Source: Leuctra nigra (Eukaryota; Arthropoda; Insecta; Plecoptera; Leuctridae). Taken from it: a DNA stretch of 64,000 nucleotides. The position numbers and the translations under genes were made by a program. Within the stretch, counting starts at the first letter, position 1; every line of letters starts with the position of its first letter. The notes under the pieces are model-generated. The model was given only the letters and a program-made list of their open reading frames with translations, was not told where the DNA came from and made no database searches. The stretch spans positions 20,226,770 to 20,290,769 of the forward strand of contig OW203768.1 in the NCBI GenBank assembly GCA_934045905.1. Direction: 5' to 3'. This document shows, in pieces, positions 12,956 to 64,000 of the stretch.

Positions 12956-12962
12956 ACTGGAC

Positions 12963-23402: not shown

Positions 23403-23439
<37 letters not shown>

Positions 23440-24255
23440 TCCTGGAATTCAAATCCGGTAAACAGGCCACAGCCTGAACGGCTAAACCGATTGATTTGAA
23501 ATTTTTACCACGTGTGCACTTTTGGCGTCTGAGGTGCCTTTTGCTATAACTGGTTTTATGCCGCCATTTTGAAACCGGAAGTAACGTCAAATCTCGAAAA
23601 CAGCTGAACCGATCGGAACGAAATTAGCTCCATTCGATTTAGATGGTCATCTATATGAAGTATCAATAAAAAAAATATTATTTTCTTATTTTCTAAACCG
23701 GAAGTGACGTCATAAATACGCAATATTTATCTAATTTCAACAAATTATACTTAAAATACATACAAAATGAACTTACATTGTAACATAGACAATAAAAATA
23801 AAAATTTCAAGGTTGCAGTGTTCTCGGCCGCCATTCCTAAAACCGGAAGTGACGTCATATATCGAAAACGCCTGTACCGATTACAACTGAAATAGATCCT
23901 GTCTATTCATTCTGCTTTCTATTTGAAAAATCAATTGGGATGAATAAATATACAAATTAACGGTACCGGAAATGGCGGGAGGAACCACTAAATTAAACCG
24001 GAAGTGACGTCATATATTGGAAATGGCATGACCGATTTGACGGAAATTAGCGCTAATAAATTCAGAAGGTCATTCAAGAAGTATCAACTAGATAAAACTA
24101 GATTGTTTTCTTATTACCTATACCGGAAATGACGTCATAAATATGCTAAATTACGTCATTTATATGCAAAATGACACTAAATTCACCACTTTATTTATTT
24201 TAAATAGATATTTAGTAATCGTACACTGTAAATATTTATAAATTCAAGGTTGCTG

Positions 24256-25150
24256 TGTTCTCGGCCGCCATTTTTAAAACCGGAGCTGACGTCATATATC
24301 GAAAACGGCTGTACCGAATGCAACCAAATTTTGGAAATGTGTAGGACTAATAATTATGAATTCAAGTTGACATTACTTTCGGCCACCATTGTTAAAACCG
24401 GAAGTGACGTCATATATCAAAAACGGCTGTACGGATTGCAACTTAATTATGTAATTATGTAGGACTTATAATTATGAATTAAATAAGACATCAATTTCAG
24501 CCGCCATTGTTAAAACCGGAAGTGACATCATATATCGAAAACGGCTGTACCGATTGCAACCAAATTTAAGAAATGTGTTGGACTAATAATTATGAATTCT
24601 GGACGACATTATTTTCGGCCGCCATTGTTAAAACCGGAAGTGACGTCATACATCGAAAACGGCTGTACAGATTGCAACCTAATTATGTAATTATAAGGAC
24701 AAATAATTATGAATTCAGGACGACATTATTTTCGGCCGCCATTGTTAAAACCGGAAGTGACGTCATATATAAAAAACAGCTGTACCGATTGCAATTAAAT
24801 TTTGGAAATGTGTAGGACTAATAATTATGAATAAAGACTACATTATTTTCGGCCGCCATTGTTAAAACCGGAAGTGACGTCATATATCGAAAACGGCTGT
24901 ACCGATTGTAATCAAATTTTGGAAATACTTAGGACTAATAATTATGAATTAAATACAATATTATATTCGGCCGCCATTGTTAAAACCGGAAGTGACGTCA
25001 TATATCGAAAACGGCTGTACCGATTGCAACCAAATTATGCAATTATGTAGGACTTATAATTATGAATTCAAGACGACATTATTTTCGGCCGCTATTTCAA
25101 AACCGGAAGTGACGTCATATATCGAAAACGGTTGGATCGATTGTAACGTA
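24256..25150 (-). repeat. ~117-bp tandem array inside copy B
   Basis: About eight units. On the + strand each has TTTTCGGCCGCCATTGTTAA, AACCGGAAGTGACGTCATAT, ATCGAAAACGGCTGTACCGA and TTGCAACCAAATTTTGGAAA. Equivalent arrays are in copy D (30610-31510) and, inverted, in copy C (42125-42900). The unit combines YY1-like GCCGCCATT, ETS-like CCGGAAGT and CRE TGACGTCA. Confidence 0.9.
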
Positions 25151-25308
25151 ACTTAAGCTATTCTTCTTGGATAATCATTTTAATCTTATACCAAACGCAA
25201 CTTTTCTTAGTAACCAAATCAGTTGAGGCGTATTTTTTTTAAAGAAATTAGTCCTTGCTCCGACATGTGCATCAAGCTGTATGAATAAACTAACAAAAGA
25301 AGTGATAT

Positions 25309-26391
25309 CCCAGAAAAAACACTCCGTGTAAAAAAGGTAGCCAAGTCTCTTTACTTTAAAAAAATTCAACACCGAAAAGGAGTGATATCAAAAAAGGAGC
25401 CAAGTCAATGACATTTTCCAAATATTTAATCGTATTTTTTAAATAAAAGTATAAACACCGAGAAATACTTTACAAAAGGACTTGGCGCATCGTTTTTTAA
25501 AGATATTTTTCTACTCATAATCATATGTCATTTATATACAACCGTCATTTAGAACTTTTAGAATAATAGGGAAACATCTTTCAATTACATATTGTACAAA
25601 CCTATGTAAAATATTTTCTATTTGTATTTGTACACGATGAAACTTGTTGCCTATGTTTGTAATAAATACACAATCTAGTTATCTTTGTAATATTGTTTCG
25701 TGGTCAACATAATTACCTAAGTCTCATGCGTTATACCTTCTCAACATGAAATAAATTTCTATTAATCCACATTTTATAACAATACATTTCACAAAGTACA
25801 CAGTAACGTCACATTGAATTTATATTAAAAAATTTAACTTTATACACTTGACACTTCAAAAATATATAATAGTGTTCCGTAGATAGTTAGTAATTATTTG
25901 ACAACGTTTCATGATTTCCTTCAGTCAAGATCAAATTATGAAAAGTTACCCTTCTAATATCACCATTTTAACAGTGCTATAAGAATATGTATGAGCCCCA
26001 CTTCCAATTGTTATTTAATTCTTCCCACTTTATATTACCTATCTATTACAGCATGAAATCTTTCTTCTATCGCCATTGACAAAACTATAAAATAACCATT
26101 ACTAAAAGTAGCTTGAATCATATATTCTGGCTCCAACAAAAAGAGGAAAATGTACCTACTTGTAAATTTCTTTCCACTTTTAGTATAGAATGATGTCTTT
26201 AAAAAAACGATGCGCCAAGTCCTTTTGTAAAGTATTTCTCGGTGTTTATACTTTTATTTAAAAAATACGATTAAATATTTGGAAAATGTCATTGACTTGG
26301 CTCCTTTTTTGATATCACTCCTTTTCGGTGTTGAATTTTTTTAAAGTAAAGAGACTTGGCTGCCTTTTTTACACGGAGTGTTTTTTCTGGG
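25309..26391. repeat. Terminal foldback of copy B
   Basis: Arms of about 190 bp: CCCAGAAAAAACACTCCGTG ... GCCAAGTCTCTTTAC ... GGACTTGGCGCATCG, with the near-exact complement at 26200-26391. The ~700 bp between the arms is AT-rich with no gene. Equivalent foldbacks: 9111-9508, 31662-32742, 40870-41949, 61490-62612 and 63667 to the window end. Confidence 0.85.
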
Positions 26392-28893: not shown

Positions 28894-29484
28894 CACGATT
28901 TTTAATATATAATAAATATTTCATTTACAATATTGCAATATGTTTATTATATCAGAGTTCACATGAGCTAATATCGTAGGCAAGAAAGAGTGATTGAGCG
29001 AGCGAAGCGAGCGTCTCCTTTTGGCTCTTTTGGCACGGACCTTTTTTTTCTTTTTTTTCTGTTACTGACGATATACAAGTCACAGTTTTTCTTCGATCAA
29101 GCTGAAAATTTGCACACATGTACTGACCATTTCCGGGCGTTGCAGACCCTAATTGTTTTGAAATCTCCTGATTGGTTCAAATTTAAAAAAAATTATCTTT
29201 CTATTGGTTGGTTTGATCAATTTGAAATTTAGCAAAGTCATTGCAACCAACATTGTACCCAATCATAATAAATTTCAGCTAAATCCTCCCATTGGTTCAA
29301 ATTTGAAACCATTTTTCCTGTGATTTTTGCAATTTAAACTATAACCGATTGACCGCCAAACTAAAAACTTTGCATGGTCATTGGTACCAACATTTAAGGC
29401 ATTTTTGCCAATTTTCAGTCAAATCTGTCGTTATTTTCAAAAAATTTTGTAATTTTAGGGACATTTTGCGTGTTGGCTGTCAAA

Positions 29485-32400
29485 TCTAGTGGAGCGGTCG
29501 CTCCACCCAGCCAAGTCGTACTATACACTCACACTCACTCAACATACCGTAAATGCCTAATAAACTGAGGAGCAGACGAAACACTTTTACTGTAAGCAAC
29601 AACATGGCATTTTCGGCCTACTGGATCTCAAAATTGGGAAATCTCACATTGTTGCGAAATAACTTAATTTCGAGCTATGGCCCACCTGACAACATATACC
29701 AAATTTGGGAACAATACGTTATGCCGTTTGGGTGCTAGAGGGCCGTGAAAACTGTGAAATTACACCCCTTTTAAAAGCTATCTGATGATGATGATTCAGA
29801 TATCAGGAAACGTTGCTATCACCGCCACAGCCTAAACGGCTGAACCGATCAACCTGAAATTTTTACCACATTTGCACTTTTGGCGTCTGATGATACCTTG
29901 CCTCTTGTGATTTTTTGTGCCGCCATTTTTAAACCGGAAGTGACGTCATATCTCAAAAACGTCTGGACCGATTAGAACGAAATTAGCGCCATTCGATTTA
30001 GACGGTCATCTATATGAAGTATCAATAAAAAAATTATTATTTTCTTATTTTCTGAACCGGAAGTGACGTCATAAATACGCAATATTTAACTTATTTCAAC
30101 AAATTATACTTAAAATACATACATAAGTAACTTACATTGTAACATAGACAATACAAATTATAAATTCAAGGAGGCAGTGTTCTCGGCCGCCATTCCTGAA
30201 ACCGGAAGTGACGTTATATATCTAAAACGCCTGTACCGTTTGCAACTGAACTAGCTCCTGCGTATTCATTCTGCAACTTTTTATGAAACTCAATTGTGAA
30301 AAATGAATAAACAAATTAACGGTACCGGAAATGGCGGCAGGAACCACTAAATGAAACCGGTAGTGACGTCATATATTACATACGGCAAGACCGATTTTAC
30401 GGAAATATAGGGATTATGAATTCAGATGGTCGTTCATAAAGTATCAACTAGATTGTTTTCCTATTACCTATACCGGAAATGACGTCATAAATATGCTAAA
30501 TGACGTCATAAATATGATAATTGACACAAAATTCACCACTTTATACTTTTAAATAGATATTTAGTAAACCTACTTTGTAAATAATTATAAATTCAAGGTT
30601 GCAGTGTTCTCGGCCGCCATTTTTAAAACCGGAAGTGACGTCATATATTGAAAACAGATGTACCGATTGCAACCAAATTTTGGAAATGTGTAGGACTAAT
30701 AATTATGAATTGAAGACGACATTATTTTCGGCCGCCATTGTTAAAACCGGAAGTGACGTCATATATCGAAAACGGCTGTACCGATTGCAACCAAATTTTG
30801 GAAATATGGAGGACTAATAATTATGAATGAAATACGACATTATTTTCGGCCGCCATTGTTAAAACCGGAAGTGACGTCATATATCGAAAACGGCTTTACC
30901 GATTGCAACCAAATTTTGGAAATATGTAGGAATTATAATTATGGATTAAAGGCGACATTATTTTTGGCCGCCATTGTTAAAACCGGAAGTAACGTCATAT
31001 ATCAAAAACGGCTGTACCGATAGCAACCAAATTTTGGAAATGTGTAGGACTTATAATTATGAATTAAAGACGACATTATTTTCGGCCGCCATTGTTAAAA
31101 CCGGAAGTGACGTCATATGTCGAAATCGTCTGTACCGATTGCAACCAAAATTTGGAAATATGGAGGACTTAAAATTATGAATTAAAGACGACATTATTTT
31201 CGGCCGTCATTGTTAAAACCGGAAGGGACGTCATATATCGAAAACGTCTGTACCGATTGCAACCAAATTTTGGAAATATGTAGGACTTATAATTATGGAT
31301 AAAAAGACGACATTATTTTCGGCCGCCATTGGTTAAACCGGAAGTGACGTCATATATCGAAATCGTCTGTACCGATTGCAACCAAACTGTGCAATTATGT
31401 AGGACTTATAATTATGAATTCAAGACGACATTATTTTCGGCCGCTATTTCAAAACCGGAAGTGACGTCATATATCGAAAACGGCTGGATCGATTATAACG
31501 AAACAATTAAGCTATTCTTCTTGGATAATCATTTTCATCTTATACCAAACGCAACTTTTCTTAGTAAGCAAATCGGTTGAGGCGTATTTCTTTAAAGAAA
31601 TTAGTCCCTGCTCGGACATGTGCTACAAGCTGTATGAATAAACTAACAAAAGAAGTGATATCCCAGAAAAAAACACTCCGTGTAAAAAAGGCAGCCAAGT
31701 CTCTTTACTTTAAAAAAATTCAACACCGAAAAGGAGTGATATCAAAAAAGGAGCCAAGTCAATGACATTTCCAAATATTTAATCGTATTTTTGAAATAAA
31801 AGAATAAACACCGAGAAATACTTTACAAAAGGACTTGGCGCATCGTTTTTTAAATTCATTTTTTGATTCATAAGCATATGCCATTGATATACAACCGTAA
31901 TTTAGAATTTTTAGAATAATAGGGAAACATCTTTCAATTACATATTATACATATACCTACTGTAAAATATTATCTATTAGAATATGTACGTACGCGATAA
32001 AACTTGTTGCCTATGTTTTCTATAAATACACAATAGTTAGTTATCTTCGTAATATTGTTTCGTGGTCAACATAATTAAGTCTCATGCGTTAAACCTTCTC
32101 ATCATGAAATACATTTCTATTAATCCACATTTTATAACAAAACATTTCACAAAGTACATAGTCACATTGAATTTCTATTAAAAATTTTAACTTTATACAC
32201 TTGACACTTCAAAAATATATAATAGTGTTCCAAAGACAGTTCGTAATTATTTGACAACGTTTCATGATTTCCTTCAGTCAAGATCAAATTATGAAAAGAT
32301 ACCCTTCTAATATCACCATATTAACAGTGCTATAAGAATATGTATGAGCCCACTTCCAATTGTTATTTAATTCTTCCACCCTTATATTACTTATCTATTA

Positions 32401-32742
32401 CAGCATGAAATCTTTCTACTATCGCCATTGACAAAACTATAAAATAGCCATTACTAAAAGTAGCTTGATTCATAGTTTCTGGCTCTAATAGAAAGAGGAA
32501 AATGTACCTACTTTAAATTTCTTTCCACTTTTAGTATTGAATGAGGTCTTTAAAAAAACGATGCGCCAAGTCCTTTTGTAAAGTATTTCTCGGTGTTTAT
32601 TCTTTTATTTCAAAAATACGATTAAATATTTGGAAATGTCATTGACTTGGCTCCTTTTTTGATATCACTCCTTTTCGGTGTTGAATTTTTTTAAAGTAAA
32701 GAGACTTGGCTGCCTTTTTTACACGGAGTGTTTTTTTCTGGG
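29485..32742 (-). mobile_element. Helitron-like element, copy D
   Basis: 3258 bp; same order as copy B: 3' hairpin end at 29485 (TCTAGTGGAGCGGTCGCTCC), spaced motif copies, a ~117-bp tandem array (30610-31510), and the 5' foldback (31662-32742). About 13 composite ETS/CRE motifs. It is nearly identical, in inverse orientation, to copy C, so the two are recent relatives. Insertion between A and T without target duplication is seen directly against 2498-2512. Confidence 0.88.
30610..31510 (-). repeat. ~117-bp tandem array inside copy D
   Basis: About eight units with the same motif order as in copy B. Scattered substitutions (GGAAGGGACG, GTAACGTC) mark individual units, so the units have been diverging since amplification. 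Confidence 0.88.
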
Positions 32743-37109: not shown

Positions 37110-37993
37110 ATGTTCAAACTCGTAAGTTGAAAAGATATTTTATCTAGTAGAGAATTGGTATGGAAAAATGTGTTTGATTTTAATTAGGGGGTGACAAAAA
37201 TTAATGCAGTGCGGCTTTTAAAAAGAAAATCTACTTTCGAGTCAAAGTTTTAGAATCTATAAAAAAAAGTTGGTTGAAAAGTTCGAAATTTGTGAATGCA
37301 AAGTGTTTTCCGAGAAAATAACAAAGAAAAGTGAAAGTTATTATAGGAAATTGTTTAAAAGTGAAGAGCCGATTACTAGACGATTACTTGCGTCCGATTT
37401 TCATTTTTCAAACGCGTAATCAAAAGAGATTGATTACAAAAAAAATAAAAATTTAAATCTTCCTAAAAATAGAAATATAATTCAAGATTTTACTTAAATT
37501 CAGTAAGAAATTGTGTATAGTGTTTGTCACAACTATAATTACTCACAAGCCCAAATGTTGTATTTTCATTAATTATTTCACTCATTTTGATTTATTTAAC
37601 AATTCTGTAAAAGTGAAAACAAGACAATGGAAAACATTTTGATACTTATAAAACATTCTAACCTCCATCCTTCTCTTCTAGTTCGTTCTTGCCGCCGTCA
37701 TGGCCTGCGTGTACGCCGCCCCCGCCCCCGGCCTTGGCTACGCCGGATACGCCGGATACAACGGATTCGGATACTCGAGCTACGCCTCCCCTCTTGCCTA
37801 CTCCGGCTACGCTTCTCCCCTTGCCTACAACTACAACAGCTACGCCGCCCCCGCCGTCGCCTACTCCGCACCCGCCGTCACCTACGCCGCCGCCCCCGTC
37901 GCCATCCCCGCCCCTCATTCCTACACCAGCGGCTACACCGTCGAGCACCATGTAGAGCCCGTCGAACAACACGGTTACAAGATCGCGTACTAA
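37110..37993 (+). CDS. Gly/Tyr/Ala-rich small cuticle protein, secreted (two exons: 37110-37121 and 37682-37993)
   Basis: Exon 1 is ATGTTCAAACTC (MFKL) followed by GTAAGT; exon 2 follows CCTTCTCTTCTAG and starts TTCGTTCTTGCC, phase 0. The joined protein is 107 residues. Residues 1-15 or so are a signal peptide (MFKLFVLAAVMACVYAAPAP). The body has YAGYAGYNGFGYSSYASPLA, a second YASPLAYNY unit, AAPAVAYSAPAVTYAAAP, and a charged end with SGYTVEHHVEPVEQHGYKIAY-like residues (37934-37990). It has no Rebers-Riddiford motif. Same exon structure, start peptide and AYSAP motif as the gene at 13567, so the two are related cuticle genes about 23 kb apart. An inner ATG at 37700 is inside the signal peptide and is not the likely start. 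GC-rich third positions contrast with the flanks. Confidence 0.9.
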
Positions 37994-40869: not shown

Positions 40870-43706
40870 CCCAGAAAAAAACACTCCGTGTAAAAAAGGC
40901 AGCCAAGTCTCTTTACTTTAAAAAAATTCAACACCGAAAAGGAGTGATATCAAAAAAGGAGCCAAGTCAATGACATTTCCAAATATTTAATCGTATTTTT
41001 GAAATAAAAGAATAAACACCGAGAAATACTTTACAAAAGGACTTGGCGCATCGTTTTTTTAAAGACCTCATTCAATACTAAAAGTGGAAAGAAATTTAAA
41101 GTAGGTACATTTTCCTCTTTCTATTAGAGCCAGAAACTATGAATCAAGCTACTTTTAGTAATGGCTATTTTATAGTTTTGTCAATGGCGATAGTAGAAAG
41201 ATTTCATGCTGTAATAGAAAAGTAATATAAGGGTGGAAGAATTAAATAACAATTGGAAGTGGGCTCATACATATTCTTATATCACTGTTAATATGGTGAT
41301 ATTAGAAGGGTATCTTTTCATAATTTGATCTTGACTGAAGGAAATCATGAAACGTTGTCAAATAATTACGAACTGTCTTTGGAACACTATTATATATTTT
41401 TGAAGTGTCAAGTGTATAAAGTTAAAATTTTTAATAGAAATTCAATGTGACTATGTACTTTGTGAAATGTTTTGTTATAAAATGTGGATTAATAGAAATG
41501 TATTTCATGATGAGAAGGTTTAACGCATGAGACTTAATTATGTTGACCACGAAACAATATTACGAAGATAACTAACTATTGTGTATTTATAGAAAACATA
41601 GGCAGCAAGTTTTATCGCGTACGTACATATTCTAATAGATAATATTTTAAAGTAGGTATGTATAATATGTAATTGAAAGATGTTTCCCTATTATTCTAAA
41701 AATTCTAAATGACGGTTGTATATCAATGGCATATGCTTATGAATCAAAAAATAAATTTAAAAAAACGATGCGCCAAGTCCTTTTGTAAAGTATTTCTCGG
41801 TGTTTATTCTTTTATTTCAAAAATACGATTAAATATTTGGAAATGTCATTGACTTGGCTCCTTTTTTGATATCACTCCTTTTCGGTGTTGAATTTTTTTA
41901 AAGTAAAGAGACTTGGCTGCCTTTTTTACACGGAGTGTTTTTTTCTGGGATATCACTTCTTTTGTTAGTTTATTCATACAGCTTGTAGCACATGTCCGAG
42001 CAGGGACTAATTTCTTTAAAAAAATACGCCTCAACCGATTTGCTTACTAAGAAAAGTTGCGTTTGGTATAAGATGAAAATGATTATCCAAGAAGAATAGC
42101 TTAATTGTTTCGTTATAATCGATCCAGCCGTTTTCGATATATGACGTCACTTCCGGTTTTGAAATAGCGGCCGAAAATAATGTCGTCTTGAATTCATAAT
42201 TATAAGTCCTACATAATTGCACAATTTGGTTGCAATCGGTACAGACGATTTCGATATATGACGTCACTTCCGGTTTAACCAATGGCGGCCGAAAATAATG
42301 TCGTCTTTTTATCCATAATTATAAGTCCTACATATTTCCAAAATTTGGTTGCAATCGGTACAGCCTTTTTCGATATATGACGTCCCTTCCGGTTTTAACA
42401 ATGGCGGCCGAAAATAATGTCGTCTTTAATTCATAATTATTAGTCCTCCATATTTCCAAAATTTGGTTGCAATCGGTACAGACGATTTCGACATATGACA
42501 TCACTTCCGGTTTTAACAATGGCGGCCGAAAATAATGTCGTCTTTAATTCATAATTATAAGTCCTACACATTTCCAAAATTTGGTTGCTATCGGTACAGC
42601 CGTTTTTGATATATGACGTTACTTTTGGTTTTTACAATGGCGGCCAAAAATAATGTCGTCTTTAATCCATAATTATAATTCCTACATATTTCCAAAATTT
42701 GGTTGCAATCGGTACAGCCGTTTTCGTTACATGACGTCACTTCCGGTTTTAACAATGGCGGCCGAAAATAATGTCGTCTTCAATTCATAATTATTAGTCC
42801 TACACATTTCCAAAATTTGGTTGCAATCGGTACAGCTGTTTTCAATATATGACGTCACTTCCGGTTTTAAAAATGGCGGCCGAGAACACTGCAACCTTGA
42901 ATTTATAATTATTTACAAAGTAGGTTTACTAAATATCTATTGAAAAGTATAAAGTGGTGAATTTAGTGTCAATTATCATATTTATGACGTCATTTAGCAT
43001 ATTTATGACGTCATTTCCGGTATAGGTAATAGGAAAACAATCTAGTTGATACTTTATAACCGACCATCTGAATTCATAATCCCTATATTTCCGTAAAATC
43101 GGTCTTGCCGTTTGTAATGTATGACGTCACTACCGGTTTCATTTAGTGGTTCCTGCCGCCATTTCCGGTACCGTTAATTTGTTTATTCATTTTTCACAAT
43201 TGAGTTTCAAAACAAATTGCAGAATGAATACGCAGGAGCTAGTTCAGTTGCAAACGGTACAGGCGTTTTAGATATATTACGTCACTTCCGGTTTCAGGAA
43301 TGGCGGCCGAGAACACTGCAACCTTGAATTTATAATTTGTATTGTCTATGTTACAATGTAAGTTACTTATGTATGTATTTTAAGTATAATTTGTTGAATT
43401 AAGTTAAATATTGCGTATTTATGACGTCACTTCCGGTTCAGAAAATAAGAAAATAATTATTTTTTTATTGATACCTCATATAGATGACCGTCTCAATCGA
43501 ATGGCGCTAATTTCGTTCTAATCGGTCCAGACGTTTTTGAGATATGACGTCACTTCCGGTTTAAAAATGGCGGCACAAAAAATCACAAGAGGCAAGGTAT
43601 CATCAGACGCCAAAAGTGCATATGTGGTAAAAATTTCAGGTTGATCGGTTCAGCCGTTTAGGCTGTGGCGGTGATAGCAACTTTTTCGGGAATCATCAGA
43701 ATCATC

Positions 43707-45035: not shown

Positions 45036-45183
45036 TAAGAATGCACCAAAACACATCACCTGCCTTACATAAACCACTAGTTTCATTCACTGTCACGGTA
45101 AATATTTTACGAAGTCCTTCACCGCGTTTGCATTTCCCTGTAAGTGAGATAGGAAATGACTCTCTGACAATTATGTTATGTGC

Positions 45184-45324
45184 ATGACGATTGTAAACAT
45201 GGAACGGCGTTGTTTTGCTTGTTATTCCATCTGGCCTTGGATCCAATGCGACACTGATGTGTGGTCAGTCTCGGACGATGAGCCGTCAATCATGTGTGCC
45301 AACAACATCGCCATCCTCAAGCAG
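45184..45324 (+). CDS. Likely alternative first coding exon (1a) of the sugar-transporter gene
   Basis: The frame is open from an in-frame stop at 45154 to a donor CAG|GTAAAT at 45325. Possible starts are 45178, 45184, 45199 and 45292. The coding end reads SVSDDEPSIMCANNIAILKQ and then splices in phase 0. Exon 1b (50964-51146) also ends in -LKQ with the identical donor CAG|GTAAAT and phase, and the TM1 exon starts in phase 0 with LWLAVAASLGY, so either first exon would join to give LKQ-LWLAV. A short cytosolic N-terminus before TM1 is normal for Tret1-like proteins, and alternative first exons are known in that family. Start choice is uncertain; the shortest form from 45292 has 11 residues. 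The exon call rests on splice site, phase and peptide-end agreement, not homology. Confidence 0.5.
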
Positions 45325-46562: not shown

Positions 46563-46790
<228 letters not shown>

Positions 46791-50963: not shown

Positions 50964-51146
50964 ATGAAGTGGAGGAATGAGACATTGATGAGATGGTACA
51001 GATACGGTAGAGATAGAGTGTGGAATAAGGAGCCTTGTGAGAAGGATGCAATTATATCAGATGAGTGTGTGAGTGGAAATTATAACACAGCTGTTGTGCA
51101 GTGTGGTGGACAGAATGCGAGGTATAGCAAATGGGAGTTGAAGCAG
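50964..51146 (+). CDS. First coding exon (1b) of the sugar-transporter gene
   Basis: 61 codons from ATG to a donor CAG|GTAAAT at 51147, phase 0. The peptide begins MKWRNETLMRWYRYGRD and ends NARYSKWELKQ; it is charged, with no membrane helix, as expected for the cytosolic N-terminal tail of a Tret1-like facilitated sugar transporter. The next exon in phase 0 is LWLAVAASLGYMIIG at one of the acceptors in the 120-bp array. Exon 1a at 45184 has the same -LKQ end and donor, so the two are likely alternative starts from separate promoters. The gene call depends on the TM1 exon; this exon alone has no recognisable homology. Confidence 0.6.
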
Positions 51147-51712
51147 GTAAATGATAACAAAAACTAGGGAAATGTTGATAATTGGGTGTTGTTTGATGTG
51201 TTGCTGTTAGTTATTATATGACTTGTGGGATTGACAGACCTTGAACAACCGAAGAGACTAATATTTCCTTGTGCGGAAATAACTTATCGATAGATCATGT
51301 TTTATTAGTTGTTCTAAAGAGCATAATCTGTCAAGAAGTATTAAATACTTCCCAATAAAAGAAATCTGTGAAAAATATCAGCCAAGTCTCCAACTAGGAA
51401 AAAGGGAAATCTAAAAATTCCGCATTGAAAAGTGCAAAAAATGTCCATGCCAACATCGTTCATTAATAATAATAATCTTTAATAAAAAAAAAAATTAAAA
51501 TCAATATATTCTTGACGCATAACTATTACTAATTCAATTATTTAGTCTTTTAAAGAGCTATTTTCTATTGTACAGAAGCGCATATTGTCCAGAAATGAAA
51601 TATCACTACGTAAAAATGCACACAAAAATCGATGTGCCAGTATTTATTGATTTTTCTGTTGGCTTGTAATGACTCATTCATTTGACAGAACTGTCATGCG
51701 TAAGCACGTGTA
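51147..51712. other. Intron before the 120-bp array
   Basis: From donor 51147 to the array. It contains a decayed piece resembling the Helitron-like foldback (AAAAATATCAGCCAAGTCTC, about 51371-51390). The last bases, GTATATGACAG, resemble the unit junction CTATGTGACAG, which suggests where the array's first breakpoint lay. Confidence 0.5.
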
Positions 51713-54700
51713 TATGACAGTGTTGCCATGTGTTACAGCTATGGCTGGCAGTGGCGGCATCTCTCGGCTACATGATTATCGGCCTGGTGCGAGGCTACTC
51801 GTCTTCTGCCGTGCTGTCCATGCAGGAGGCTATGTGACAGTGTTGCCATGTGTTACAGCTATGGCTGGCAGTGGCGGCATCTCTCGGCTACATGATTATC
51901 GGCCTGGTGCGAGGCTACTCGTCTTCTGCCGTGCTGTCCATGCAGGAGGCTATGTGACAGTGTTGCCATGTGTTACAGCTATGGCTGGCAGTGGCGGCAT
52001 CTCTCGGCTACATGATTATCGGCCTGGTGCGAGGCTACTCGTCTTCTGCCGTGCTGTCCATGCAGGAGGCTATGTGACAGTGTTGCCATGTGTTACAGCT
52101 ATGGCTGGCAGTGGCGGCATCTCTCGGCTACATGATTATCGGCCTGGTGCGAGGCTACTCGTCTTCTGCCGTGCTGTCCATGCAGGAGGCTATGTGACAG
52201 TGTTGCCATGTGTTACAGCTATGGCTGGCAGTGGCGGCATCTCTCGGCTACATGATTATCGGCCTGGTGCGAGGCTACTCGTCTTCTGCCGTGCTGTCCA
52301 TGCAGGAGGCTATGTGACAGTGTTGCCATGTGTTACAGCTATGGCTGGCAGTGGCGGCATCTCTCGGCTACATGATTATCGGCCTGGTGCGAGGCTACTC
52401 GTCTTCTGCCGTGCTGTCCATGCAGGAGGCTATGTCACAGTGTTGCTATGTGTTACAGCTATGGCTGGCAGTGGCGGCATCTCTCGGCTACATGATTATC
52501 GGCCTGGTGCGAGGCTACTCGTCTTCTGCCGTGCTGTCCATGCAGGAGGCTATGTGACAGTGTTGCCATGTGTTACAGCTATAGCTGGCAGTGGCGGCAT
52601 CTCTCGGCTACATGATTATCGGCCTGGTGCGAGGCTACTCGTCTTCTGCCGTGCTGTCCATGCAGGAGGCTATGTCACAGTGTTGCCATGTGTTACAGCT
52701 ATGGCTGGCAGTGGCGGCATCTCTCGGCTACATGATTATCGGCCTGGTGCGAGGCTACTCGTCTTCTGCCGTGCTGTCCATGCAGGAGGCTATGTCACAG
52801 TGTTGCCATGTGTTACAGCTATGGCTGGCAGTGGCGGCATCTCTCGGCTACATGATTATCGGCCTGGTGCGAGGCTACTCGTCTTCTGCCGTGCTGTCCA
52901 TGCAGGAGGCTATGTCACAGTGTTGCCATGTGTTACAGCTATGGCTGGCAGTGGCGGCATCTCTCGGCTACATGATTATCGGCCTGGTGCGAGGCTACTC
53001 GTCTTCTGCCGTGCTGTCCATGCAGGAGGCTATGTGACAGTGTTGCCATGTGTTACAGCTATGGCTGGCAGTGGCGGCATCTCTCGGCTACATGATTATC
53101 GGCCTGGTGCGAGGCTACTCGTCTTCTGCCGTGCTGTCCATGCAGGAGGCTATGTGACAGTGTTGCCATGTGTTACAGCTATGGCTGGCAGTGGCGGCAT
53201 CTCTCGGCTACATGATTATCGGCCTGGTGCGAGGCTACTCGTCTTCTGCCGTGCTGTCCATGCAGGAGGCTATGTGACAGTGTTGCCATGTGTTACAGCT
53301 ATGGCTGGCAGTGGCGGCATCTCTCGGCTACATGATTATCGGCCTGGTGCGAGGCTACTCGTCTTCTGCCGTGCTGTCAATGCAGGAGGCTATGTCACAG
53401 TGTTGCCATGTGTTACAGCTATGGCTGGCAGTGGCGGCATCTCTCGGCTACATGATTATCGGCCTGGTGCGAGGCTACTCGTCTTCTGCCGTGCTGTCCA
53501 TGCAGGAGGCTATGTGACAGTGTTGCCATGTGTTACAGCTATGGCTGGCAGTGGCGGCATCTCTCGGCTACATGATTATCGGCCTGGTGCGAGGCTACTC
53601 GTCTTCTGCCGTGCTGTCAATGCAGGAGGCTATGTCACAGTGTTGCCATGTGTTACAGCTATGGCTGGCAGTGGCGGCATCTCTCGGCTACATGATTATC
53701 GGCCTGGTGCGAGGCTACTCGTCTTCTGCCGTGCTGTCCATGCAGGAGGCTATGTGACAGTGTTGCCATGTGTTACAGCTATGGCTGGCAGTGGCGGCAT
53801 CTCTCGGCTACATGATTATCGGCCTGGTGCGAGGCTACTCGTCTTCTGCCGTGCTGTCAATGCAGGAGGCTATGTCACAGTGTTGCCATGTGTTACAGCT
53901 ATGGCTGGCAGTGGCGGCATCTCTCGGCTACATGATTATCGGCCTGGTGCGAGGCTACTCGTCTTCTGCCGTGCTGTCCATGCTGGAGGCTATGTGACAG
54001 TGTTGCCATGTGTTACAGCTATGGCTGGCAGTGGCGGCATCTCTCGGCTACATGATTATCGGCCTGGTGCGAGGCTACTCGTCTTCTGCCGTGCTGTCCA
54101 TGCAGGAGGCTATGTGACAGTGTTGCCATGTGTTACAGCTATGGCTGGCAGTGGCGGCATCTCTCGGCTACATGATTATCGGCCTGGTGCGAGGCTACTC
54201 GTCTTCTGCCGTGCTGTCAATGCAGGAGGCTATGTCACAGTGTTGCCATGTGTTACAGCTATGGCTGGCAGTGGCGGCATCTCTCGGCTACATGATTATC
54301 GGCCTGGTGCGAGGCTACTCGTCTTCTGCCGTGCTGTCCATGCAGGAGGCTATGTGACAGTGTTGCCATGTGTTACAGCTATGGCTGGCAGTGGCGGCAT
54401 CTCTCGGCTACATGATTATCGGCCTGGTGCGAGGCTACTCGTCTTCTGCCGTGCTGTCCATGCAGGAGGCTATGTGACAGTGTTGCCATGTGTTACAGCT
54501 ATGGCTGGCAGTGGCGGCATCTCTCGGCTACATGATTATCGGCCTGGTGCGAGGCTACTCGTCTTCTGCCGTGCTGTCCATGCAGGAGGCTATGTCACAG
54601 TGTTGCCATGTGTTACAGCTATGGCTGGCAGTGGCGGCATCTCTCGGCTACATGATTATCGGCCTGGTGCGAGGCTACTCGTCTTCTGCCGTGCTGTCCA

Positions 54701-57700
54701 TGCAGGAGGCTATGTCACAGTGTTGCCATGTGTTACAGCTATGGCTGGCAGTGGCGGCATCTCTCGGCTACATGATTATCGGCCTGGTGCGAGGCTACTC
54801 GTCTTCTGCCGTGCTGTCCATGCAGGAGGCTATGTGACAGTGTTGCGATGTGTTACAGCTATGGCTGGCAGTGGCGGCATCTCTCGGCTACATGATTATC
54901 GGCCTGGTGCGAGGCTACTCGTCTTCTGCCGTGCTGTCCATGCAGGAGGCTATGTGACAGTGTTGCGATGTGTTACAGCTATGGCTGGCAGTGGCGGCAT
55001 CTCTCGGCTACATGATTATCGGCCTGGTGCGAGGCTACTCGTCTTCTGCCGTGCTGTCCATGCAGGAGGCTATGTCACAGTGTTGCCATGTGTTACAGCT
55101 ATGGCTGGCAGTGGCGGCATCTCTCGGCTACATGATTATCGGCCTGGTGCGAGGCTACTCGTCTTCTGCCGTGCTGTCCATGCAGGAGGCTATGTGACAG
55201 TGTTGCGATGTGTTACAGCTATGGCTGGCAGTGGCGGCATCTCTCGGCTACATGATTATCGGCCTGGTGCGAGGCTACTCGTCTTCTGCCGTGCTGTCCA
55301 TGCAGGAGGCTATGTGACAGTGTTGCCATGTGTTACAGCTATGGCTGGCAGTGGCGGCATCTCTCGGCTACATGATTATCGGCCTGGTGCGAGGCTACTC
55401 GTCTTCTGCCGTGCTGTCCATGCAGGAGGCTATGTGACAGTGTTGCCATGTGTTACAGCTATGGCTGGCAGTGGCGGCATCTCTCGGCTACATGATTATC
55501 GGCCTGGTGCGAGGCTACTCGTCTTCTGCCGTGCTGTCCATGCAGGAGGCTATGTGACAGTGTTGCCATGTGTTACAGCTATGGCTGGCAGTGGCGGCAT
55601 CTCTCGGCTACATGATTATCGGCCTGGTGCGAGGCTACTCGTCTTCTGCCGTGCTGTCCATGCAGGAGGCTATGTGACAGTGTTGCCATGTGTTACAGCT
55701 ATGGCTGGCAGTGGCGGCATCTCTCGGCTACATGATTATCGGCCTGGTGCGAGGCTACTCGTCTTCTGCCGTGCTGTCCATGCAGGAGGCTATGTGACAG
55801 TGTTGCCATGTGTTACAGCTATGGCTGGCAGTGGCGGCATCTCTCGGCTACATGATTATCGGCCTGGTGCGAGGCTACTCGTCTTCTGCCGTGCTGTCCA
55901 TGCAGGAGGCTATGTGACAGTGTTGCGATGTGTTACAGCTATGGCTGGCAGTGGCGGCATCTCTCGGCTACATGATTATCGGCCTGGTGCGAGGCTACTC
56001 GTCTTCTGCCGTGCTGTCCATGCAGGAGGCTATGTGACAGTGTTGCCATGTGTTACAGCTATGGCTGGCAGTGGCGGCATCTCTCGGCTACATGATTATC
56101 GGCCTGGTGCGAGGCTACTCGTCTTCTGCCGTGCTGTCCTTGCAGGAGGCTATGTGACAGTGTTGCCATGTGTTACAGCTATGGCTGGCAGTGGCGGCAT
56201 CTCTCGGCTACATGATTATCGGCCTGGTGCGAGGCTACTCGTCTTCTGCCGTGCTGTCCATGCAGGAGGCTATGTGACAGTGTTGCCATGTGTTACAGCT
56301 ATGGCTGGCAGTGGCGGCATCTCTCGGCTACATGATTATCGGCCTGGTGCGAGGCTACTCGTCTTCTGCCGTGCTGTCAATGCAGGAGGCTATGTCACAG
56401 TGTTGCCATGTGTTACAGCTATGGCTGGCAGTGGCGGCATCTCTCGGCTACATGATTATCGGCCTGGTGCGAGGCTACTCGTCTTCTGCCGTGCTGTCCA
56501 TGCAGGAGACTATGTCACAGTGTTGCCATGTGTTACAGCTATGGCTGGCAGTGGCGGCATCTCTCGGCTACATGATTATCGGCCTGGTGCGAGGCTACTC
56601 GTCTTCTGCCGTGCTGTCCATGCAGGAGGCTATGTCACAGTGTTGCCATGTGTTACAGCTATGGCTGGCAGTGGCGGCATCTCTCGGCTACATGATTATC
56701 GGCCTGGTGCGAGGCTACTCGTCTTCTGCCGTGCTGTCCATGCAGGAGGCTATGTGACAGTGTTGCCATGTGTTACAGCTATGGCTGGCAGTGGCGGCAT
56801 CTCTCGGCTACATGATTATCGGCCTGGTGCGAGGCTACTCGTCTTCTGCCGTGCTGTCCATGCAGGAGGCTATGTGACAGTGTTGCCATGTGTTACAGCT
56901 ATGGCTGGCAGTGGCGGCATCTCTCGGCTACATGATTATCGGCCTGGTGCGAGGCTACTCGTCTTCTGCCGTGCTGTCCATGCAGGAGGCTATGTGACAG
57001 TGTTGCCATGTGTTACAGCTATGGCTGGCAGTGGCGGCATCTCTCGGCTACATGATTATCGGCCTGGTGCGAGGCTACTCGTCTTCTGCCGTGCTGTCCA
57101 TGCAGGAGGCTATGTCACAGTGTTGCCATGTGTTACAGCTATGGCTGGCAGTGGCGGCATCTCTCGGCTACATGATTATCGGCCTGGTGCGAGGCTACTC
57201 GTCTTCTGCCGTGCTGTCCATGCAGGAGGCTATGTGACAGTGTTGCCATGTGTTACAGCTATGGCTGGCAGTGGCGGCATCTCTCGGCTACATGATTATC
57301 GGCCTGGTGCGAGGCTACTCGTCTTCTGCCGTGCTGTCCATGCAGGAGGCTATGTGACAGTGTTGCCATGTGTTACAGCTATGGCTGGCAGTGGCGGCAT
57401 CTCTCGGCTACATGATTATCGGCCTGGTGCGAGGCTACTCGTCTTCTGCCGTGCTGTCCATGCAGGAGGCTATGTGACAGTGTTGCCATGTGTTACAGCT
57501 ATGGCTGGCAGTGGCGGCATCTCTCGGCTACATGATTATCGGCCTGGTGCGAGGCTACTCGTCTTCTGCCGTGCTGTCCATGCAGGAGGCTATGTGACAG
57601 TGTTGCCATGTGTTACAGCTATGGCTGGCAGTGGCGGCATCTCTCGGCTACATGATTATCGGCCTGGTGCGAGGCTACTCGTCTTCTGCCGTGCTGTCCA

Positions 57701-58188
57701 TGCAGGAGGCTATGTGACAGTGTTGCCATGTGTTACAGCTATGGCTGGCAGTGGCGGCATCTCTCGGCTACATGATTATCGGCCTGGTGCGAGGCTACTC
57801 GTCTTCTGCCGTGCTGTCCATGCAGGAGGCTATGTCACAGTGTTGCCATGTGTTACAGCTATGGCTGGCAGTGGCGGCATCTCTCGGCTACATGATTATC
57901 GGCCTGGTGCGAGGCTACTCGTCTTCTGCCGTGCTGTCCATGCAGGAGGCTATGTCAGAGTGTTGCCATGTGTTACAGCTATGGCTGGCAGTGGCGGCAT
58001 CTCTCGGCTACATGATTATCGGCCTGGTGCGAGGCTACTCGTCTACTGCCGTGCTGTCCATGCAGGAGGCTATGTCACAGTGTTGCCATGTGTTACAGCT
58101 ATGGCTGGCAGTGGCGGCATCTCTCGGCTACATGATTATCGGCCTGGTGCGAGGCTACTCGTCTTCTGCCGTGCTGTCCATGCAGGAG
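51713..58188 (+). repeat. 54-copy, 120-bp tandem array of splice acceptor plus TM1 exon
   Basis: Fifty-four units in register (unit starts 51721 + 120k, k = 0-53), differing by only a handful of substitutions. Each unit is intron end (GTGACAGTGTTGCCATGTGT then TACAG) followed by exon start (CTATGGCTGGCAGTGGCGGC ... TCCATGCAGGAG). Acceptor AGs lie at 51738 + 120k; only the last unit continues into the rest of the exon (ACAAGTCCCAAC) and its donor. The transporter frame at each of the 53 junctions is either AM-stop-Q (TGA, 35 times) or AMSQ/AMSE (TCA, 18 times). Other variants are CAATGCAG for CCATGCAG (5 units, always with the TCA type), GCGATG for GCCATG, and single unique changes. A different frame is open through all units because 120 is divisible by 3; it has no support as protein. 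Confidence 0.97.
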
Positions 58189-58234
58189 ACAAGTCCCAAC
58201 CTCGTGCCCTCGCAAGATGCAGAGTCCTGGATCA
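58099..58234 (+). CDS. TM1 exon of a Tret1-like facilitated sugar/trehalose transporter
   Basis: 136 nt, phase 0 in, phase 1 out, from acceptor TGTTACAG (58098) to donor ATCA|GTGAGT. It encodes LWLAVAASLGYMIIGLVRGY (first transmembrane helix), SSSAVLSMQ, then ETSPNLVPSQDAESWI. The order helix - G-Y-S-S-A - L-S-M - short loop - QDA-SW is that of insect Tret1-type transporters, where the loop after TM1 ends in QDAGSW before TM2. Such proteins carry trehalose or glucose across the plasma membrane. Downstream exons (TM2-TM12) are not in the window up to 64000, so the following intron exceeds 5.7 kb. The 5' 90 nt of this exon and the acceptor before it are the unit of the 54-copy array. Exact substrate cannot be told from one exon; other sugar-porter members share this region. 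Confidence 0.75.
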
Positions 58235-58250
58235 GTGAGTAACCAAAGAC

Positions 58251-58348
58251 TACGGTCGGTGACAGGCAAATATGAACCAGCGCTAGCATGGGCCGGCCTA
58301 TACCTGGCAATGCTAAACAGGGTTCATCTTTGCCTGTCACCGACCATA
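58251..58348. mobile_element. Small palindromic insertion in the intron
   Basis: CGGTCGGTGACAGGCAAA and TTTGCCTGTCACCGACC, extended by ATATGAACC / GGTTCATC, form arms of ~26 bp with a ~45-nt centre. It lies 20 nt after the TM1-exon donor and abuts the element at 58349. Confidence 0.65.
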
Positions 58349-58985
58349 GAGTCAGGATTTTCAGGCAGTTGCCTATTTCTGAATATGCTCCTGAGAACCG
58401 GCAAAATCAGGGATAAATCCGTTTCATGACATGCTGGTTTTAAATATACCCACTTGATGTTGCCTTTTTTCCTTTTCTGTGATTTTTTCGGTTGATAGTG
58501 CCTTTTTTGGCATTTTGAGAAATAATTCTGCCTTTTTGATCATTTCATGCTGCCTTTTTTGACATTTTTGCCTAAATTGCTATTTGTATACTGTTTTCAC
58601 TATTCAAACTCACATTTCGTTGGTACTCGGTGCAGCAATTTGACCGTTGGATCCCTGACTGACAATGGTCCAGGAACTCCACCACATCTCCTATGTTCGA
58701 TTCATTGCATAATACCAAAGAAAATGTTGTCGGCAGTGAATATTTGTATGAAAAAATACTCATTTCATGAAACTCACGTGGACATGACATGAGATTTCCA
58801 CTTATCCCAAATTCACATAATTTTCACATTTTTCATGGCGTAGTTGCGTATTTTACCTATATGATACTTCATTTATTTTGACGCTGATACTGCCTATTTT
58901 GAGTGTTTTGATACTGCCCTTTTGTGCCTTTTTTTGACATTTCATTTCGCCTTTTTGGGGGTTCACTGCCTGAAAATCTTGACTC
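58349..58985. mobile_element. TIR element with TGCCTTTTT-rich interior
   Basis: Ends GAGTCAGGATTTTCAGGCAG and CTGCCTGAAAATCTTGACTC are inverted repeats (one mismatch), flanked by TA. The interior repeats CTGCCTTTTTTG-like words near both ends. About 640 bp, no recognisable protein. Confidence 0.65.
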
Positions 58986-58987
58986 TA

Positions 58988-60083
58988 CCAATGACTTCTC
59001 ATGTCACATGACATTGTTGTCGGTTGACTGGCCCGAGCCATGGTATTGACGTCACATGATCTCTATCGGTCTGATTGAAGTTGTCAACCTGTGACAGGCG
59101 TTGCGTTCCGCATTGTCTGGGGCACACTATTTAGTGACGTGAAGGCCATTATTTCACTAGAAGGTGAACATTGAAGATAATATTTCATAAAATTAATGTG
59201 GTCATTTTATTCAAAAACAAAATAAAGTAATTAATATATCGACCTTAGCAATATCAATTTCAAATTATAAATTCAACTGGTGTGCTCAAACTCGACGTAA
59301 AGCTAAATCGGCTATATTTTTTTTTAGCTTTGTGTCTTGTTTGTGCAAAGATATTGTAATAAGTTGGTTTTCTTACTGGAAGGTCGACGTAATGATATGA
59401 TACCCATGTTAATTTTTTCAAATGTTCATACTATGAATGACTCTACACTTACGACAATATTTATGTAGTATTCTTCAATAATTACCATCGAGTCAACTCT
59501 TAACAGTCTACTTGCAAGTCCCTTGGGTGACGATATGGTGACTCAGCACAATGTGCAAGCGATAATTGCACAGCTCAATGTTGATCGAAATGTAAGTTTG
59601 TCATAGAAGTCACACTTGCCGTAGAATCACACATTAATTGAAGATAGAAATTGCATCATCCGTAAAATATTTCTGCCATGTGATCGTCCAATATCAATGC
59701 TTACAGTTTTAAATCTCAATCCGAAGAAGACGGTATCTAACGTGGCTATTATTGTATTACCATTCTAAATTTATTTTCTTTATTGCTAGGTTGTGAGCAA
59801 CTATTGTTTGCTAATTTCATTTATGTCATTTTCTAATTAATTTCATTTATTCTCACTCTCTTGTTTGATGATTTATTTATTTTATTGTGTTATTTAGACA
59901 GCCCGCACACAAGAATTTACTTCTCATACGGGCTTCTCGCCTACGCATTACTTGTTTATAATAGTATGTACATCTTAGACCAAATATTAGCTTTAAGACG
60001 TCGTTGATGTACATACATACCTATGTAAAAGAGAAAATAAAATGATTTTCAAATAAAAAAGCAATGTTCTGCAAAGAGTCAGA
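58988..60083. other. Probable intron sequence
   Basis: No further transporter exon found here. A possible donor follows GTTGATCGAAAT at about 59593 (GTAAGT) but no transporter-like peptide precedes it. Confidence 0.45.
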
Positions 60084-60260
60084 TCTAGTGGAGCGGTCGC
60101 TCCACCCAGCCAAGTCGTACTATACACTCACAGTCACTCAACATACCGTAAATGCCTAATAAACTGAGGAGCAGACCAAACACTTTTACTGTAAGCAACA
60201 ACATGGCATTTTCGGCCTACTGGATCTCAAAATTGGTAAATCTCACATTGTTGCGAAATA
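60084..60260 (-). mobile_element. Helitron-like copy X, 3'-end part
   Basis: The 177-bp 3' end of copy X (hairpin GTGGAGCGGTCGCTCCAC next to TCTA) up to GCGAAATA, where copy Y interrupts it. X resumes at 62614. Confidence 0.85.
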
Positions 60261-62613
60261 TCTAGTGGAGCGGTCGCTCCACCCAGCCAAGTCGTACTAT
60301 ACACTCACAGTCACTCAACATACCGTAAATGCCTAATAAACTGAGGAGCAGACCAAACACTTTTACTGTAAGCAACAACATGGCATTTTCGGCCTACTGG
60401 ATCTCAAAATTGGTAAATCTCACATTGTTGCGAAATATCTTAATTTCGAGCTATTGCCCACCCCACTACATATACCAAATTTGGGAACAATAGGTTATGC
60501 CATTTGCGCGCTAGAGGACCGAGAAAACAGTGAAATTACACCACTTTCTGATTCTGAAGATGATGATGATTCTGATGATATCACGAAACGTCGCTATCAC
60601 CGCCACAGCATAAACGGCTGAACCGATCGACCTGAAATTTTTACCACATGTGCACTTTTGGCGTCTGAGGTGCCTTTTTATAAAACCAACCGGAAGCCGC
60701 CATTTTGAAACCGGAAGTGACGTCATAACTCAAAAACGTCTGGACCGATTAGAACGAAATTAGCGCTATTCGATTTAGATGGTCATCTATATGAAGTATC
60801 AATAAAAAAATATTATTTTCTTATTTTCTAAACCGGAAGTGACGTCATAAATACGCAATATTTAACTTATTTCAACAAATTATACTTAAAATACGTACAT
60901 AATTAACTTACATTGTAACATAGACAATACAATTTATATATTCAAGGTAGCAGTGTTCTCGGCCGCCATTCCTGAAACCGGAAGTGACGTCATATATCTA
61001 AAACGCCTGTACCGATTGCAACTGAACTAGCTCCTGCGTATTCATTCTGCTATTTATTTGAAAAATCAATTGTGAAAAATGAATAAATAAATTAATGGTA
61101 CCGGAAATGGCGGCAGGAACCACTAAATGAAACCGGAAGTGACGTCATATATTACAAACGGCATGACCGATTTTACGGAAATATAGGGATTAGGAATTCA
61201 GATGGTCGTTCATGAAGGTATCAACTAGATAAAACTAGATTGTTTTCTTATTACCTATACCGGAATTCGGCCGCTATTTCAAAACCGGAAGTGACGTCAT
61301 GTATCGAAAACGGCTGGATCGATTATAACGAAACTTAAGCTATTCTTCTTGGATAATCATTTTCATCTTATACCAAACGCAACTTTTCATAGTAACCAAA
61401 ACGGTTGAGGCGTATTTTTTTAAAGAAATTAGTCCCTGCTCGGACATGTGCTACAAGCTGTATGAATAAACTAACAAAAGAAGTGATATCCCAGAAAAAA
61501 CACTCCGTGTAAAAATACCAGCCAAGTCTCTTTAACTATAAAAAAAATAGAAGAAATCTAAAAATTCAGCACTGAAAAGGAGTGATATCAAAAAAGGAGC
61601 CAAGTCAACGAATTTTCCAAATTTTAATCGTACCATTGAAATAAAAATATCAACCCCCGAGAAATACTTAAAAAAAGGACTTGGCGCATCGTTTTTTTAA
61701 AGACATTTTTCTATTCTTAAGCTTATGCCACTCACATACTACGTAGTTCAGAAATGCCTAGAAAAATTGGGACAAAACTTTCAAATTAAATATTGAACAT
61801 TCTGTAAAATATTTTAAATTTAAATATAAGTACGCAAAGAAACATAGCATTGTCTTACAAGCAATAAATACAGAACAGTTGTGTTTGTGATTGGTAGGTA
61901 CATATAGTTTTGTGGGTACATCAACATACCTACTACAGCATTATACTTTGAACCTTCTCGCCGTGTAATTAATTGCTATTAATTAACATTTTATACCAAA
62001 AAAATTCATAAATTACATAACGTATTACTTTAGATAAAAATCTAGTCAGTAATTATTTGAGCAGCATGGCTCAGTGCACTAGTCACTTATACAAATCTCA
62101 TTGACGGCCTTCTTGTAATGAGCGCTTTCGCTATTTCCCTCAGTCACGATATTGAGAAGTATGATTGATTAATATGACCCTAGAAATAGTGGCAATAACG
62201 AATAGACTAAGCCGCTTCCGTTTATTCGTTATTCGTTTATCCGTTTATTTCCTCTGAATATTGACAAAATACCAAAACTGCCAGTAGGTAAGAGTACTAG
62301 TTATATTAAAACGTAGTATGATTCGTCGATAATGAATGTGATATACTCAGGAAAATATACTTGTAGAGTTCTTCCTATACTTTTAGGATAGAAAAGTGTC
62401 TTTAAAAAAACGATGCGCCAAGTCCTTTTTTTAAGTATTTCTCGGGGGATGATATTTTTATTTCAATGGTACGATTAAAATTTGGAAAATTCGTTGACTT
62501 GGCTCCTTTTTTGATATCACTCCTTTTCAGTGCTGAATTTTTAGATTTCTTCTATTTTTTTTATAGTTAAAGAGACTTGGCTGGTATTTTTACACGGAGT
62601 GTTTTTTCTGGGA
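60261..62613 (-). mobile_element. Helitron-like copy Y, inserted in copy X
   Basis: A complete, shorter copy (2353 bp): 3' hairpin end, about five spaced ETS/CRE motifs, then a join at CCGGAATTCGGCCGC where the ~117-bp array of B, C and D is missing, then the 5' foldback (61490-62612). Arms end TTTTTTCTGGGA, i.e. the 5' end reads TCCCAG with the canonical TC. It sits exactly between A and T of X (GCGAAATA^TCTTAAT). Confidence 0.88.
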
Positions 62614-64000
62614 TCTTAATTTCGAGCTATGGCCCACCCCACTACATATACCAAATTTGGGAACAATAGGTTATGCCATTTGCGCGCTAGAGGACCGAGA
62701 AAACAGTGAAATTACACCACTTTCTGATTCTGAAGATGATGATGATTCTGATGATATCACGAAACGTCGCTATCACCGCCACAGCCTAAACGGCTGAACC
62801 GATCGACCTGAAATTTTTACCACATGTGCACTTTTGGCGTCTGAGGTGCCTTTTTATAAAACCAACCGGAAGCCGCCATTTTGAAACCGGAAGTGACGTC
62901 ATAACTCAAAAACGTCTGGACCGATTAGAACGAAATTAGCGCCATTCGATTTAGATGGTCATCTATATGAAGTATCAATAAAAAAAATATTATTTTCTTA
63001 TTTTCTAAACCGGAAGTGACGTCATAAATACGCAATATTTAACTTATTTCAACAAATTATACTTAAAATACGTACATAATTAACTTACATTGTAACATAG
63101 ACAATACAATTTATATATTCAAGGTAGCAGTGTTCTCGGCCGCCATTCCTGAAACCGGAAGTGACGTCATATATCTAAAACGCCTGTACCGATTGCAACT
63201 GAACTAGCTCCTGCGTATTCATTCTGCTATTTATTTGAAAAATCAATTGTGAAAAATGAATAAATAAATTAATGGTACCGGAAATGGCGGCAGGAACCAC
63301 TAAATGAAACCGGAAGTGACGTCATATATTACAAACGGCATGACCGATTTTACGGAAATATAGGGATTAGGAATTCAGATGGTCGTTCATGAAGGTATCA
63401 ACTAGATAAAACTAGATTGTTTTCTTATTACCTATACCGGAATTCGGCCGCTATTTCAAAACCGGAAGTGACGTCATGTATCGAAAACGGCTGGATCGAT
63501 TATAACGAAACTTAAGCTATTCTTCTTGGATAATCATTGTCATCTTATACCAAACGCAACTTTTCATAGTAACCAAATCGGTTGAGGCGTATTTTTTTAA
63601 AGAAATTAGTCCCTGCTCGGACATGTGCTACAAGCTGTATGAATAAACTAACAAAAGAAGTGATATCCCAGAAAAAACACTCCGTGTAAAAATACCAGCC
63701 AAGTCTCTTTAACTATAAAAAAAAATAGAAGAAATCTAAAAATTCAGCACTGAAAAGGAGTGATATCAAAGGAGCCAAGTCAACGAATTTTCCAAATTTT
63801 AATCGTACTATTGAAATAAAAATATCAACCCCCGAGAAATACTTAAAAAAAGGACTTGGCGCATCGTTTTTTTAAAGACATTTTCTATTCTTAAGCTTAT
63901 GCCACTCACATACTACGTAGTTCAGAAATGCCTAGAAAAATTGGGACAAAACTTTCAAATTAAATATTGAACATTCTGTAAAATATTTTAAATTTAAATA
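62614..64000 (-). mobile_element. Helitron-like copy X, continuation, cut by the window end
   Basis: Continues copy X from TCTTAATTTCGAGCTATGG through five ETS/CRE motifs to the foldback beginning at 63667. It has the same array deletion as Y and differs from Y by only a few bases, so X and Y are very recent sister copies. Confidence 0.85.

Follow-up and report, generated by a model that had tools for sequence, protein, structure and literature searches.

A 120-bp minisatellite repeats a putative splice acceptor 54 times before a Tret1-like transmembrane exon in Leuctra nigra

How does the spliceosome choose among dozens of identical, evenly spaced 3' splice sites that stand before one 5' splice site? 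A locus of Leuctra nigra raises this question as a natural experiment, in which the rules of choice at stake are proximity, transcription order or exon definition, rules that are usually studied with two-site minigenes. The locus lies in a stretch of 64,000 nucleotides of contig OW203768.1 (assembly GCA_934045905.1, positions 20,226,770 to 20,290,769), hereafter called the window, whose own coordinates are used throughout. From the letters alone, the original prediction saw there 54 tandem acceptors at the start of an exon of a sugar-transporter gene, and proposed that either splicing has to choose among 54 equal sites or the array silences or tunes the gene.

Fifty-four copies of an intron-exon border

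By using Tandem Repeats Finder, we found that 51711-58188 is a repeat of period 120 with 54.0 copies, 99% matches and 0% indels. Read in register, the array consists of 54 whole head-to-tail units (51711-58190, plus strand) with no indels and 0-3 substitutions per unit: 24 of the 54 are identical to the consensus, and 30 depart from it by one to three substitutions. On average two units differ at 1.1 of their 120 positions, and 371 of the 1431 pairs are identical. A 35-mer spanning the acceptor, searched with up to 3 mismatches, gave 54 matches in the window, all of them inside the array, and none in 100 shuffles. Together, these three counts confirm the 54 units of 120 bp that had been claimed. 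With head-to-tail units between ten and a few hundred bp long and of high identity (54 x 120 bp, 99%), the array has the form of a minisatellite, and it is a real, unusual structure. Its GC content is 56.5% vs 36.7% elsewhere in the window. The RNA structure of two units is unremarkable (z = -0.42), and one 24-mer from the unit had no match in viral contigs.

The copy number comes from one assembly, and the real genome could hold far fewer units. We consider such an assembly artefact very unlikely, given that the array holds 11 locally clustered unit haplotypes, which an assembler that simply repeated a consensus would not produce, and that its 6.5 kb fall within the length that long sequencing reads can span. 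Adjacent pairs of identical haplotype number 21, which is above chance (P = 0.006 by shuffling), as in local copying.

Each unit is made of an intron end (unit positions 1-28, ..GTTACAG) followed by the start of an exon (positions 29-120), that is, the first 92 nt of this exon, reading LWLAVAASLGYMIIGLVRGYSSSAVLSMQE. The acceptor TTACAG/CTAT (slashes mark splice borders) is present in 54 of 54 units, the first exon base being at 51739 on the plus strand (TTACAG/CTATG) and then every 120 bp (51739+120k). The unit had thus been rightly described as a TACAG acceptor with an exon start, the length of the latter being 92 nt rather than 90. Every unit therefore contains a splice site of its host gene, at the place expected from homology to Tret1 transporters, and we infer that these acceptors could be used as splice sites. 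The native donor is found only after the last unit, so that the units do not each have an acceptor and a donor of their own, as the members of an exon cluster do. Variation among units falls on both parts. First, in the intron part, 36 of the 54 units have G at unit position 6 and 18 have C, and five units differ at position 17, just 5' of the acceptor. Second, the exon part has 6 variable sites, which comprise one stop, three residue changes, one silent change and one change in the codon split by the unit border; unit 7 (the first being unit 0) holds a TAG stop within its own exon part. The exon parts of the array copies show no sign of constraint or selection.

The ends of the units bear on how the array arose. 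Unit 0 begins with TATATGACAG, following the native intron, while unit 39 and the last unit end in GGAGAC, as in the native exon. Judging from these ends, the duplicated segment is taken as the 120 bp from TATATGACAG to CAGGAGAC, and the presence of GGAGAC in both units points to a clean 120-bp duplication. The flanking bases (5' ..CACGTG, 3' AAGTCC..) are unlike those at the ends of the unit; no junction homology would therefore have accompanied the first duplication. A 120-bp segment across the intron-exon border would hence have been duplicated in tandem and have grown recently to 54 copies, presumably by unequal exchange or replication slippage, as in minisatellites. The locus would in this way show the seeding of a minisatellite across a splice site and its subsequent growth inside a gene.

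The transmembrane exon and its candidate partners upstream

Only the last unit has the 3' part of the exon. The exon proper, encoding a first transmembrane helix (TM1), occupies 58099-58234 on the plus strand (LWLAVAASLGYMIIGLVRGYSSSAVLSMQETSPNLVPSQDAESWI + 1 nt) and continues beyond the repeated part as TSPNLVPSQDAESWI to the donor GGATCA/GTGAGT at 58234, which is indeed the single donor expected after the last unit. A database search with a Drosophila Tret1 as query gave 1746 matches among 7994 candidates scored, and the best 120 of the 1746, all Tret1-family proteins, were kept as the homologue set. We then compared these 120 proteins with the window by tblastn (E up to 1, other array copies masked). 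Among the best 60 matches, 38 from 38 proteins fell on 58072-58236, with a best E-value of 3.2e-6 and 39-46% identity for the four best matches to the TM1 exon; those elsewhere in the window, among the same best 60, had E-values of at least 0.16. The Drosophila Tret1 query itself matched the exon at E 5e-4 with 36% identity over 47 residues. In Pfam, this short exon piece had no Sugar_tr match, and the PDB gave one match at E 1.4, which is not meaningful. The homology nevertheless bears out that the exon encodes TM1 of a Tret1-like (SLC2) transporter, and by sequence the gene looks like a trehalose transporter.

Upstream of the array, we found two candidate first coding exons on the plus strand, each open from an ATG to an AAGCAG/GTAAAT donor in phase 0. 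These are exon 1a at 50964-51146 (MKWRNETLM...SKWELKQ, 61 codons) and the alternative exon 1b at 45199-45324 (MERRCFACY...AILKQ), with further ATGs of its frame at 45178 and 45184. Their donors, at 51146 and 45324, had been predicted to splice in matching phase, and they do lie in that phase. According to approximate tables, both are at the 99.58th percentile of the 6265 GTs on both strands outside the array. Twelve plus-strand GTs in 1-51700 score at least equal to them. Nine of the twelve close no ATG-started phase-0 frame; such frames do end at 20004 (39 codons), at 45324 (49 codons if counted from its most 5' ATG) and at 51146 (61 codons). Exons 1a and 1b thus stand out by frame, donor and phase, as candidates rather than as proven exons. 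Exon 1a has no Pfam family match, and a 107-residue query made of exon 1a and the TM1 exon gave 38 candidates, none of them a homologue with an E-value of 10 or less. A long (ATC)n microsatellite of about 75 copies (46563-46788) lies between exons 1b and 1a.

We also compared the homologues with one another. Among the 120, there are 12 pairs that are common over at least 300 C-terminal residues and diverge N-terminally. Wholly different N-termini meet at Q (three pairs) or at TQ (one pair) before VLAA/ILAA in four of the 12, which come from Cephus, Nylanderia, Bombus and Cardiocondyla, all Hymenoptera; of the other eight, three have alternative starts further upstream and five end at a substitution. 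Both window exons, 1a and 1b, encode this junction Q as their last residue. The homologues agree with the junction proposed here: their switch point lies 1-2 residues before the place of the acceptor found here, and proteins cannot fix an intron to the base.

No further Tret1 exon was found at 58235-64000 or elsewhere in the window by the Tret1 homology searches. Because none lies between 58235 and the window end, the transporter gene may be truncated or dead; TM1 and the upstream exons would then be the remains of a transporter, and the array an ordinary minisatellite no longer relevant to splicing. The drift of the unit exon parts, with no sign of constraint, and the several interspersed repeats around the locus are consistent with this reading. 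Against it, the frames of exon 1a, exon 1b and the last unit are open up to their three donors and agree in phase. Moreover, before the array expanded, the introns would have measured 0.6 kb (from exon 1a) and 6.4 kb (from exon 1b), so that a gap of at least 5.8 kb to the next exon is possible. Taking these observations together, we hold a dead gene fragment to be conceivable but rather unlikely.

Acceptor choice and its predicted consequences

When joined to exon 1a, 50 of the 54 acceptors (0-49, with first exon bases from 51739 to 57619) give frames that an in-frame stop closes after 62 to 213 codons. In unit 7 this stop is its own TAG; the other 49 frames meet a TGA within the intron part of a later unit. 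From the last four acceptors (57739, 57859, 57979 and 58099), the stretch is open to the donor (57739-58234, plus strand; ORF 57718-58242), and their use would add 0-3 copies of a 40-residue segment that contains TM1. To speak of 54 equal sites was hence too strong, since 50 of the 54 meet a stop and the acceptor is weak. Silencing or tuning of the gene by the array, which had been proposed as the other outcome, may be possible.

Several apparent coding signals in the array were set aside. An open frame of 2195 aa crosses it, for which a unit length divisible by three is explanation enough; when 120-bp units were shuffled base by base, 4112 of 5000 had at least one open frame in six. When four units were translated and compared with Pfam, 14 families matched with E-values of 1 or less. 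DUF2650 scored above its cut-off (28.6 vs 22.9 bits, E 1.1e-6) by way of a 15-residue stretch, found three times, that crosses the intron part of the unit, and we take this match as a product of the repeated unit, as we do AcaB and DUF3704, which were below their own cut-offs. With the exon alone, AcaB was the sole remaining Pfam match (E 0.22).

The splice-site scores come from rounded tables and are rough. On this rough scale, the unit acceptor is weak (86.7th percentile of the 5597 AGs in the window), and, among seven units whose acceptors were scored, C>T at position 17 brings one to the 89th percentile and C>G another to the 79th. A better AG stands inside the exon part, ending at unit position 115 (97.0 percentile), and five AGs of the intron before the array (51147-51710, plus strand) outscore the unit acceptor, the best of them just before 51576. 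The native donor at 58234 reaches the 95.1st percentile, and the best GT inside the unit, CTG/GTGCGA with its GT at position 77, the 96.2nd (1.54 vs 1.26 for the native donor in the same rough tables). The scores, then, do not single out the native splice sites; homology does. Recursive splicing was rejected, as the junction CAG/CTATGG regenerates no GT.

The internal GT could turn each unit into a 48-nt cassette exon, TTACAG/CTATGG...GGCCTG/GTGCGA (positions 29-76, 16 codons, phase 0), separated by 72-nt introns and yielding proteins with repeated helix starts. A length of 48 nt in phase and a donor scoring slightly above the native one would suit such exons, but this favourable score comes from the rough tables, and GTGCGA is without A at +4 and T at +6. 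Furthermore, the matching Tret1 proteins continue unbroken through the site, where splicing would break the homologous exon, and a second TM1 copy was found in 0 of the 118 homologues with detectable TM1 (120 examined). We therefore judge the cassette exons extremely improbable.

The reading that we favour, and regard as probable, is that of a recently expanded minisatellite astride the intron-exon border, in which the donor-adjacent unit functions as the exon, all others being intronic decoys with a possible lowering effect on output. In the pre-mRNA, the same weak 3' splice site would be present 54 times ahead of a single 5' splice site. The working exon would most likely be 58099-58234, the unit adjoining the donor, because no other unit yields an exon of usual length (136 nt for this one) that a 5' splice site can define. 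Under exon definition, a weak acceptor should need the help of a donor close by, and the weakness of the unit acceptor would fit such a dependence, only the last units having a native one. The other units would be intron with decoy acceptors, the first 50 placing a stop in the mRNA and the last four keeping the frame, and the net effect would likely be some loss of productive mRNA, or none. Several points count against this reading, besides the absence of a Tret1 exon from 58235-64000 and of a match for exon 1a in the searches above. First, the native acceptor is outscored by the five intron AGs and by the one in the exon part. Second, the unit-internal GT scores as high as the native donor. 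Third, Reed and Maniatis reportedly found in 1986, with duplicated splice sites, that the proximal of two equal 3' sites is favoured, a preference by which the first unit would win.

The array might also act as an attenuator, its 54 acceptors capturing exon 1 early in transcription, so that most transcripts would bear a stop and be degraded and the copy number would set the amount of transporter. This would agree with the stops met from 50 of the 54 acceptors and with the first acceptor being transcribed 6.4 kb ahead of the last. However, the acceptor is weak and all units but the last ones lie far from the native donor, and we find an attenuator quite unlikely. Equally unlikely is a splicing rheostat, in which dozens of identical acceptors would compete for the alternative first exons, most choices leading to a stop and decay and the last four to one to four TM1 copies, with a presumably fast-changing repeat number setting the output.

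Precedents and neighbouring repeats

Searching the literature with narrow terms and with incomplete coverage of subscription papers, we found no description of a repeated-acceptor array, judged by titles and abstract starts. The original statement that no gene with such repeated acceptors was known agrees with that survey; a mirror case with donors is in print. The human gene IFI6 (6-16, G1P3) has a minisatellite with multiple splice donors (Turri, Cuin and Porter 1995, Nucleic Acids Res 23:1854; cited in PMC2572611, PMC4526556, PMC3618361 and PMC2915984). According to one of these papers, two downstream repeat units act as splice donors, resulting in three mRNAs (PMC4526556). By this account, IFI6 resembles the Leuctra locus in having a gene minisatellite whose units bring splice sites, some of which are used alternatively in IFI6; it differs in that the sites are donors in IFI6 and acceptors here, where 120-bp units come in 54 copies with 92 exon nt each. 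The Leuctra array is the acceptor-side counterpart of IFI6, the closest precedent found. The IFI6 unit is reportedly 12 bp long and present in about 26 copies, and by this length the unit here is about ten times longer.

Other known systems share single traits with the array. Facilitated trehalose transporters (Tret1/SLC2) with alternative first exons have in common with it the TM1 sequence and the place where the N-termini join, but not the repetition, the homologues having a single TM1 wherever it is detectable. In NAGNAG and other tandem 3' splice sites, several acceptors likewise precede one exon. Sites of the NAGNAG type lie a few bases apart and are two or three in number, whereas here there are 54 acceptors at 120-bp spacing. 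Exon clusters of the Dscam type also arise by tandem duplication that includes splice sites, but their units are complete exons with an acceptor and a donor and are diverged in sequence, whereas the units here are nearly identical and have no native donor, which rules out an exon cluster of this kind.

Further repeats occur in the window. Arrays of 118-bp units at 24261-25151, 30610-31494 and 42117-42883 (6.5-7.5 copies, 85-91% matches) are part of interspersed elements that are related to one another. Over 3.3 kb, 23118-26391 and 29483-32742 share 88% identity, and an opposite-strand copy lies at 40.9-44.0 kb. These elements look like mobile elements carrying tandem repeats. Within 60602-63442, the segments 60602-61265 and 62778-63442 are each about 89% identical to 23466-24128, and a 177-bp unit occurs twice at 60083-60440 with 100% identity. 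Two adjoining arrays at 12019-13406, one of 80/240-bp and one of 113-bp units (98% matches for the latter), lie directly 5' of a gene for a cuticle protein (about 13.9-14.8 kb). The open frames 13866-14801 and 37682-37993 encode alanine-rich cuticle-like proteins with AYSAPVVHHA and YSSYASPLAYS repeats, and for the protein in 13866-14801 the closest named matches, among 15, are from Thrips palmi, Schistocerca americana and Laodelphax striatellus. Finally, the open frame 7837-8436 is presumably similar to the final part of a non-LTR reverse transcriptase.
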